From contig JAAXIE010000086.1 in NCBI GenBank assembly GCA_012270525.1, positions 1 through 13,751 on the forward strand: DNA of 13,751 bases, given 5' to 3'. Every line of letters begins with the position of its first letter. The stretch's first letter is position 1. The position numbers were made by a program, and so were the translations under genes. The stretch is from Dehalococcoidia bacterium (GTDB lineage: Bacteria > Chloroflexota > Dehalococcoidia > UBA3495 > JAAXIE01). Below are positions 10,631 to 13,751 of this stretch, piece after piece. A model generated the notes under the pieces. It did not search any database. It was given only the letters and a program-made list of their open reading frames with translations, and was not told the DNA's origin.

Positions 10631-10697
10631 CGAAATCAATTGCAAGCTGGCTCCGAAGGCAAGAGCAGGCTTGAGAAAAAGGGGGAGGGTAGGGTGC

Positions 10698-11636
10698 ATG
10701 GCGACACAGGATGTTGACGTTGCGATTGTTGGCGGTGGGGCGGCAGGACTGTCGGCGGGTATCTACTGCTCGCGATACGGTCTGAGAACGGTGATTATCG
10801 AGAAGCTGGCGGGCGGTGCCCAGGTGATGAACACGGAGCGTATCGAGAACTATCCGGGCCTTCCCAACGGCATTCCTGGTGCGGAGTTCGGCCCCCTGCT
10901 CCAGGAACACGCCATGAAAGCAGGGGCCACCTTCAAGATGGCGGAAGCGAGCCGGGTGGGTCTTTCGGGGGACCACCGCAGCGTGTCGACAGATGACGGG
11001 GACGTGATGGCCAAGGCGGTGATCGTCGCGGCCGGTTCCAGCCTGCGGAAGCTGGGGATACCCGGAGAGGACGCCTACACCGGCAACGGGGTGTCGCACT
11101 GCGCGACCTGTGACGGGCCTCTGTACCAGGGGACCGTGGTAGGGGTGGTAGGTGGCGGAGATACGGCCGCCGACGAGGCGATCACGCTGACCAAGTACGT
11201 CGACCGGGTGATATTGTTCCATCGCCGGGACCGTTTCAGGGCGCAACAGGTACTGCAGGACAGGGTGCGGACCAACCCGAAGATCGAGACGGTGTGGAAC
11301 ACGGAGGTGCGCCAGATACTGGGGACCAATACGGTCACCAGCGTGCAGGTGCGGAACGTGGTCACCCGCCTCGACAACGAGGTGGACGTGGCTGGTGTAT
11401 TCGTCTGCATAGGCTTGGAGCCGAACTCTTCGCTGGTGCGGGATGTGGCGAAGGTGGACCGGGCTGGTCACATTGAAGTGGACGCCTGGATGCAGAGCTC
11501 GCGGCAGGGCATATATGCTGCGGGGGATATCCGGCAGGGGTCGGCAGGGCAGTTGATATCATCGGCGGGCGACGGAGCCACGGCGGCCATCGCCGCGCAC
11601 CGGTACATCTCCGGCATGCAGTGGACTCGACGCTAG
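10698..11636 (+). CDS. trxB: Thioredoxin reductase (low-molecular-weight, NADPH)
   Basis: 312 aa, the normal bacterial TrxB length. It passes electrons from NADPH through FAD and a disulfide to thioredoxin. Visible: FAD-binding GGGAAGLSAG (12-21), IENYPGLP, the redox pair C135-A-T-C138 followed by Asp, the NADPH-binding GGGDTAADEA, HRRDRFRA, and the C-terminal FAD segment GIYAAGDIRQ. No UGA; it is an ordinary Cys enzyme. The frame is open upstream to a TTG at 10671, but the ATG at 10698, 8 nt after GGGGGAGGG, is the better start. It is followed after 94 nt by the MerB-like selenoprotein gene on the same strand and is divergent from the hydrolase pair. It is therefore the likely source of reducing power for the selenol/thiol proteins around it, although TrxB is also a housekeeping enzyme. 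Confidence 0.95.
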   Translation: MATQDVDVAIVGGGAAGLSAGIYCSRYGLRTVIIEKLAGGAQVMNTERIENYPGLPNGIPGAEFGPLLQEHAMKAGATFKMAEASRVGLSGDHRSVSTDDGDVMAKAVIVAAGSSLRKLGIPGEDAYTGNGVSHCATCDGPLYQGTVVGVVGGGDTAADEAITLTKYVDRVILFHRRDRFRAQQVLQDRVRTNPKIETVWNTEVRQILGTNTVTSVQVRNVVTRLDNEVDVAGVFVCIGLEPNSSLVRDVAKVDRAGHIEVDAWMQSSRQGIYAAGDIRQGSAGQLISSAGDGATAAIAAHRYISGMQWTRR

Positions 11637-11730: not shown

Positions 11731-12441
11731 ATGACGACCAGCCCACAGACGTTGGACCGGGTGTTCGACCTGATCATGCGCAGTCTGGTGGACACCGGAG
11801 TAGCCCTGCACTACACGGAGTTGGCCCGGGGGATAGGGTGCAGTGCCGAAGAGGGCCGAAGGCTGCTCTACGACTTGTGCGCCACGGATTTTCCGGTCTG
11901 GCTTCATCCCGATACGGACTGGATCGCTTCGTTCCCGCCCTTCTCGAACATACCGACGCCCCACAAGATCACCATCGACGGCGAGCAAAAGTGGTTCGCG
12001 CAATGAGGGTTTGAGTCGCTGGCAGTCTGCTGGCTCTTCCCTGGCAAGACCGTCCACATCGAGACTCCGTGCTTGGACTGCAACGAGATGATTGTGATCG
12101 AGCACCGGGACGGTGAGGTGCTCTCGGCAAACTTCGATACGATCGTGGGCCATACCAATACGCCGTGGGGTACGCGGCACGAACACTGGGCCCTCGCTTG
12201 AGGGCAGATGCTCCTCTTCCGGTCGGAAGAGCACGCGCGGAACTGGCCCCACTACAACCCTGAATCGGCGCAAGGCACCATGCCTCTGGCGAGCTGGGTG
12301 GAGATGTTCAGCGTGGAGAGCATGAAACACATGCTGGACGGTGATTACATCTCGCGCTGGCAGCCGCGAAGGGCTGGCGAGCGGAACGAGGTGATGGACC
12401 GGTTGGGGAACCACGGCCCCTTCTGGAGGACGAACCGTTAG
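11731..12441 (+). CDS. MerB-like (alkylmercury lyase family) protein with two in-frame UGA, probable double selenoprotein
   Basis: 236 codons with GGGAGGCAGGA before the ATG. Residues 1-70 resemble the winged-helix N-terminus of MerB. Next come IPTPHKITIDGEQKWFAQ-U92-GFESL, matching MerB TPHxFTVDG...WCALDTL, and later HWALA-U157-GQMLLFRSEEH, matching the MerB C-x-x-H-x-x-FF segment. TGA codons at 12004-12006 and 12199-12201 therefore fall exactly where MerB has its two catalytic cysteines (C96 and C159 in the E. coli plasmid enzyme; spacing 63 there, 65 here). The third acid (D99) is E95, and C114 matches structural C117. MerB splits carbon-mercury bonds by cysteine attack. The tail GPFWR and WQPR are typical of the MerB-like family. 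Each UGA has a SECIS-like hairpin. No merA, merR or merT is nearby, so the true substrate may not be mercury. Confidence 0.82.
12018..12034 (+). promoter_or_regulatory. SECIS-like hairpin 1 of the MerB-like gene
   Basis: GCTGGCA-GTC-TGCTGGC: a 7-bp stem (two G-U pairs) with triloop GUC beginning at nt +19 after the UGA at 12004. Its core GCA-GUC-UGC closely resembles the apical GCA-GGUC-UGC of the E. coli fdhF SECIS. A lower GAG/UUC helix may extend it. Confidence 0.75.
12214..12231 (+). promoter_or_regulatory. SECIS-like hairpin 2 of the MerB-like gene
   Basis: CTCTTCC-GGTC-GGAAGAG: a perfect 7-bp stem with tetraloop GGUC beginning at nt +20 after the UGA at 12199. The loop is identical to the SelB-binding loop of the E. 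coli fdhF SECIS. Confidence 0.78.
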
Positions 12442-13500: not shown

Positions 13501-13751
13501 ATGACGATGCGGATCTGCTCGTTTCTGCCCAGTGCCACTGAGATCGTGTACGGGCTGGGCTTGGAAGACTCCCTGTACGGCGTGACGTACGAGTGCGACC
13601 ATCCCGCCCCGGCGCGCAAGAAGCCGGTGGTGGTGCACAGCATCTTCGAAAATGCCAGCTTCAGCAGTTCCGAGGTGGACCGGACCATCAGCGAGAGGAT
13701 GTCGGAGGGCAAGGGCATCTACGACATTGACCAGGACGTGTTGGGGCAGGC
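13501..13751 (+). CDS. BtuF/FhuD-like substrate-binding protein, N-terminal part (runs off right edge)
   Basis: 83 codons visible, beginning MTMRICSFLPSATEIVYGLG. RI-C-S-xxPSATE-I-xx-LGL followed by GVTYECDHP is the characteristic start of the TroA-like fold of cobalamin/iron-siderophore binding proteins. K-P-V-V-V and the S-S-S-E-V-D...G-I-Y-D-I-D segment also fit. There is no signal peptide, as in the cytoplasmic cobalamin-binding-protein-like group, so it may not serve an ABC importer. An in-frame TGA at 13495 fixes the start at 13501 or the second ATG at 13507. Only GAGGT, about 10 nt upstream, could act as a ribosome site. The C-terminal half and any partner genes lie outside the window. 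Confidence 0.8.
   Translation, partial: MTMRICSFLPSATEIVYGLGLEDSLYGVTYECDHPAPARKKPVVVHSIFENASFSSSEVDRTISERMSEGKGIYDIDQDVLGQ

Follow-up and report, generated by a model that had tools for sequence, protein, structure and literature searches.

A MerB-family gene with in-frame UGA codons at both catalytic cysteine positions in a Dehalococcoidia bacterium, a predicted double selenoprotein

The window analysed here, the whole 13,751 nucleotides of contig JAAXIE010000086.1 (assembly GCA_012270525.1, Dehalococcoidia bacterium), carries a MerB-family gene in which codons 92 and 157 are both in-frame TGA. MerB is the organomercury lyase, which splits methylmercury with two catalytic cysteines, and the TGA codons of the window gene stand at the positions of these two residues. 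We propose that both UGAs are read as selenocysteine (Sec) and that the product is probably an organometal lyase, likely attacking a carbon-metal bond with two selenols. The parts of this proposal differ in strength: insertion of Sec at both codons is very nearly certain; lyase function, if this much is granted, is a good prospect in view of the fold; and methylmercury as the main substrate is plausible, at somewhat less than even chances.

Read as an open frame, the gene runs for 236 codons to a TAG terminator, and the position of the frame and of its TGA codons, as given in an earlier reading of the DNA without database searches (the sequence-only reading), was confirmed. The same reading had seen MerB similarity around both codons, and a match to Pfam PF03243 (MerB; residues 71-190, E 8.2e-19, above the gathering cut-off) does span them; a confident structure model of the protein likewise gives the MerB fold. 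Profile alignment of 58 family members with solved MerB, with the MerB chain numbering counted from the printed match start, pairs codon 92 with Cys96, Glu95 with Asp99, Cys114 with Cys117 and codon 157 with Cys159, in agreement with the earlier assignment of the UGAs to the catalytic cysteines. The canonical triad of Cys96, Asp99 and Cys159 is accordingly replaced by UGA, Glu and UGA. The window protein resembles MerB (PF03243; 1s6l, 3f0o, 3f2f) in fold along most of its length, in the positions of both catalytic thiols and in having an equivalent of Cys117, but departs from it in the UGAs, in the Glu, in a second Cys which completes a CxxC motif, and in a C-terminal tail past the matched part; among the neighbours annotated, moreover, mer genes do not lie beside it. 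It scores below the cut-offs of the curated MerB models NF009710 and NF033555 (27.9 vs 193 and 26.9 vs 200 bits), for which the best E among the 58 members is 1.3e-14.

A scan of species genomes gave 206 relatives, the best 80 of which were kept for locus counts. TGA occupies both codons in 66 of these 80 loci, and TGC or TGT at codon 92 is followed by TGA at codon 157 in 13; the remaining locus, L016, has no placement in this count because an in-frame stop disrupts its early part; a later reading gave it Cys at 92 and, at 157, a stop. The extra stop in L016 is TAG, and the same genome has a second match with one TGA (L138). Shared as it is by 66 of 80 related loci, the TGA pair cannot be two stops that arose by chance, which bears out the earlier argument that two random nonsense mutations were improbable. 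Both TGAs recur in the nearest relative, L001, which is 88% identical and syntenic, and synonymous codon changes between it and the window outnumber replacements downstream of both UGAs (synonymous/replacement 45/7 before UGA92, 17/8 between the UGAs and 21/15 after UGA157). Judged by record titles, loci with TGA at both sites belong to Dehalococcoidia, other Chloroflexi, Deltaproteobacteria, Desulfobacterales, Poribacteria, Nitrospirae, Abyssobacteria and Lambdaproteobacteria.

The exchange of Sec and Cys across the family was followed in 106 rows, comprising the window, 103 distinct sequences drawn from 122 nearly full-length loci, and two Cys/Cys proteins. Positions 92 and 157 are Sec/Sec (U/U) in 82 rows, Cys/Sec (C/U) in 22 and Cys/Cys (C/C) in two, with no third residue, such that the in-frame UGAs align with Cys of homologues; the suggestion of a real MerB homologue with Sec at both sites is hence supported by the homologue search which the sequence-only reading had proposed. 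On a tree built with columns 92 and 157 removed, by a quick method with support from the Shimodaira-Hasegawa-like approximate likelihood ratio test (SH-aLRT) only, seven changes are needed at position 92, six of them forced by well-supported branches, and two at position 157. Among database proteins, 120 were listed of the 574 found, and 111 of those listed are Cys92 proteins whose chains stop at position 157 or a little before it, as fits cutting at the second UGA; the others are five Trp/Trp proteins, two Cys/Cys proteins, one with Gly at 92 and one that is shorter. A protein search with residues 158-236 alone gave no match.

A conserved hairpin follows each UGA, and in the window each has the 7-bp stem that had been claimed. 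Our stem test demanded at least 6 bp, a loop 16-20 nt past the codon and, near the start of that loop, a G; it was passed after UGA92 in 66 of 67 genes and after UGA157 in 80 of 80, compared with 45 of 1866 codons elsewhere in these genes and none of 18 terminator UGAs in U/U genes (L042, the end of which is uncertain, was set aside from this test and from the count of stop codons). The looser geometry of the bacterial selenocysteine insertion sequence (bSECIS) model, with the loop 16-37 nt past the UGA and an early G (PMC13188914, in the parts covered), is also found. Free energies of -7.5 kcal/mol or lower were obtained at 56 of 67 UGA92 sites, 70 of 80 UGA157 sites and 122 of 321 control positions. 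Among the 67 U/U genes, codons 93-105 show an excess of synonymous identity of 0.20 and codons 158-172 one of 0.29, as against 0.04, 0.00 and 0.01 for the three remaining stretches; in 13 Cys92 genes it is 0.36 at the second site and, at the first, 0.21, barely above a background of 0.17-0.19. Stem 2 is 99.2% paired across 76 distinct rows, and its outer pair shows 11 double changes from C-G to U-A, vs 2.3 in shuffles.

Genomes were also drawn evenly from three phyla, independently of similarity to the gene. Of 297 genomes from the phylum to which L015's genome belongs (titled Deltaproteobacteria), 18 match, and 16 of these hold 20 two-TGA genes; the matches in the other two lack internal stops, one being partial and one distant. 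In L001's phylum three of the 201 genomes sampled are carriers, and between them hold one Cys92/TGA157 gene and four that have two TGAs. Of 95 genomes in L002's phylum (Rokuibacteriota by title), 21 gave 24 matches, with one TGA in 20, two in one, and none in three that are partial. No relative was found in the plasmids and viral contigs searched. One genome, G007, holds three double-TGA copies (L091, L093 and L094), and other genomes are also multi-copy, with two or three copies each.

Sec at the second catalytic site of a MerB relative has a precedent in SaoL, a MerB-like family with one Sec in a CU motif and the sole MerB-like family in the parts covered of a survey of 119 selenoprotein families and subfamilies (PMC13188914). 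A scan of NCBIfam with the 58 members at E 0.001 returned matches only to SaoL and the two MerB models, and the window protein scores 39.1 bits on the SaoL model (NF040728), the cut-off of which is 140. Two SaoL loci in the 297-genome sample exceed that cut-off. The first site of L141 retains Cys and Asp, and its second reads Cys-Sec; in L142 the second site is likewise Cys followed by a stop codon. SaoL resembles the window protein, a predicted selenoprotein, in belonging to the MerB family and in having Sec as its second catalytic residue, and L141 also has a CxxC near MerB Cys117; SaoL, however, has a single Sec in a CU pair, whereas the window protein has two UGAs and lacks that pair. MerB2 of Bacillus megaterium (5c17) has Cys at both sites and Ser at 99 (PMC8261052, parts covered). 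Two Sec per chain and, by name, metal binding are shared with MbdU (NF045648) and a metal-binding UxxU protein (NF041115), but in the parts of PMC13188914 covered these are not listed as MerB, and their models match neither the window protein nor the 58 members. What is new is therefore the double-Sec site alone, as the sequence-only reading had supposed of a MerB homologue with both active residues as Sec, since Sec at the second site by itself is already known from SaoL; no description of a double-Sec MerB was found in the parts of the literature surveyed, which did not include two selenoprotein papers by Haft and colleagues.

We envisage that SelB and tRNA-Sec would insert Sec at both UGAs, and that the two selenolates would bind the metal of an organometal, methylmercury being the foremost candidate. 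The proton for release of the hydrocarbon could then come from Glu95, which occupies the position of MerB Asp99, and the metal would depart on cellular thiols, a route we suggest because MerA is usually not found. MerB without MerA is on record (PMC8261052, in the parts covered). HgcA exceeded its cut-off in 10 of 40 carrier genomes and was found in 83 genomes of the 297-genome sample, in 10 of 16 two-TGA carriers vs 73 of 281 others (Fisher p 0.003, uncorrected for kinship or genome size); with the sample's centre removed, the carriers stand at 10 of 15. The genome with the partial match, G258, is counted among the 281 and is HgcA-positive. PMC8261052 reports, in the parts covered, no HgcAB in any of its MerB-only genomes. 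A tentative extension, which we hold less likely than not, is that the double-Sec lyase may be the missing methylmercury demethylase of anaerobes, HgcA-bearing mercury methylators included, and may be widespread; it would have been overlooked because gene callers cut at the UGAs and mer surveys screen for catalytic cysteines.

Several observations weigh against the proposal of a double-Sec lyase, and some of them concern decoding. Five of 13 Cys92 genes pass the stem test at the first site, and eight of 13 reach the energy threshold there; free energy by itself discriminates less than the stem test. Covariation in stem 2 is limited to one pair, and hairpin 1, the stem core of which hardly varies, gave no covariation signal. 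The 49-nt stretches of the window, folded alone, are unremarkable (z 0.47 and -0.41 vs shuffles), and hairpin 2 differs from the minimum-energy fold of its stretch; as single folds are no better than shuffles, support for the hairpins comes from conservation across relatives. One of the 120 listed database proteins, P0013, which lies outside the tree rows, has Gly at 92. SelB occurs widely across the phyla sampled (in 263 of 297 genomes of L015's and 158 of 201 of L001's), and G248, one of the 16 carriers in the former sample, has no SelB match at the limit used; co-occurrence with SelB is therefore a matter of consistency rather than proof, and was dropped as proof of Sec, being uninformative at such base rates. 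With regard to function, lyase activity and substrate are drawn from the fold, Glu replaces Asp99, and MerA exceeded its cut-off in just three of 40 carriers.

The latter two points favour the strongest alternative, namely that a double-Sec protein of MerB fold does not cleave C-Hg bonds, and instead sequesters or delivers metal, acts as a redox enzyme, or serves as lyase for another organometal or organometalloid. Also consistent with such a role are the 20 annotated neighbour proteins, none of them a mer gene product (other neighbours were clustered only), the want of any widely shared neighbourhood, and the ABC (ATP-binding cassette) importer beside the gene in five Chloroflexota loci, other loci adjoining various metabolic genes. 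Conversely, Sec or Cys occupies the two catalytic positions in 106 of 106 rows, position 95 is acidic in 80 of 80 genes examined, and HgcA is commoner among carriers, in one sample. We regard this alternative as improbable, if deserving of serious attention.

Far less credible is the decoding of UGA as Cys or Trp, through a changed code or a suppressor, in preference to Sec. Five proteins with Trp at both sites (P0003, P0004, P0006, P0007 and P0059), all from the Joint Genome Institute (JGI), speak for it, and such Trp pairs would also be expected if double-UGA genes were translated under code 4. Yet 18 of 66 U/U genes use UGA as their own terminator, hairpins accompany the two internal UGAs and not the terminators, and loci read from DNA have Cys or TGA at both sites, never a Trp codon; on these grounds a changed code was rejected. 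Most carriers, furthermore, possess the Sec machinery, as assessed in 40 genomes (40 of loci L001-L043, those of L044-L080 being left out): tRNA-Sec exceeded its cut-off in 32, SelB in 36 and SelA in 36, every genome had at least one of the three, and the nearest relative's genome (G001) has all three. Under the same cut-offs 14 control genomes gave tRNA-Sec in five, SelB in two and SelA in one; the tRNA-Sec cut-off of 47 bits is lax alone, given the five controls, and the best carrier matches reach 66-83 bits. A further reading takes the gene for a pseudogene or an error of assembly, in which UGA truly stops translation and the product is a 91-residue N-terminal piece alone; we reject it as scarcely conceivable. 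Public gene calls do end at a UGA, and the 111 Cys92 proteins end at 157 or a little before it, but both TGAs are present in many separate assemblies and synonymous changes predominate after both.

Table 1. Features of the predicted double-selenoprotein gene and its upstream neighbour in the window.
Feature	Coordinates	Strand	Basis
MerB-family gene, predicted double selenoprotein	11731..12441	+	frame, Pfam match, homologues
TGA codon 92, predicted selenocysteine, MerB Cys96 position	12004..12006	+	profile alignment, relatives
Glu95 codon, MerB Asp99 position	12013..12015	+	profile alignment, relatives
SECIS-like hairpin 1: 7 bp, loop begins 18 nt past UGA	12018..12034	+	stem test, conservation
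Cys114-x-x-Cys117; Cys114 at MerB Cys117 position	12070..12081	+	profile alignment, relatives
TGA codon 157, predicted selenocysteine, MerB Cys159 position	12199..12201	+	profile alignment, relatives
SECIS-like hairpin 2: 7 bp, GGUC loop 19 nt past UGA, outer pair covaries	12214..12231	+	stem test, covariation
Thioredoxin-reductase-like gene, immediately 5' of lyase gene	10671..11636	+	neighbour annotation

Around the gene (Table 1), the annotated neighbours in the window are a thioredoxin reductase, a carbamoyltransferase, hydrolases, an MFS protein and LytB. A thioredoxin-reductase-like gene also lies 5' of the lyase gene in L001, and is no general neighbour. A mer-operon role was rejected on the annotated neighbours described above, as was a conserved partner gene, the widest neighbour cluster covering 11 of 81 loci in an initial clustering, which kept the longest overlapping frames and thereby lost true genes, and nine of 81 in a second. 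An Rfam search of the window gave no match at the gathering score, and no tRNA genes were found in it. In the five Chloroflexota loci (L012, L013, L020, L055 and L072) the importer comprises a substrate-binding protein, a permease and a TOBE-domain ATPase, and a UbiD-like gene lies farther along. In L018, L036 and L041 a radical-SAM protein is encoded immediately 5' on the same strand, and the one radical-SAM neighbour annotated in this set has a match to a B12-binding domain below the cut-off. Downstream of the lyase gene, at 13501-13751, the window holds part of a BtuF-like gene and ends before the position of the TGA codon; its counterpart in L001 (7802-8743), a cobalamin-binding gene 1.1 kb past the lyase gene, carries a CEEU (CxxU) motif whose U is an in-frame TGA, and this selenoprotein type is listed in PMC13188914, in the parts covered.

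The table of a 2026 review (PMC13188914), in the parts covered, gives no MerB-family entry with Sec in place of both catalytic thiols. The repeated exchange of Sec and Cys at one site, with the other nearly always Sec, offers a natural experiment on why cells bear the cost of selenium. If the substrate is methylmercury, surveys requiring a whole protein with catalytic cysteines would miss these genes, cut short as they are in public calls, and their excess in genomes with HgcA would bear on net methylation.
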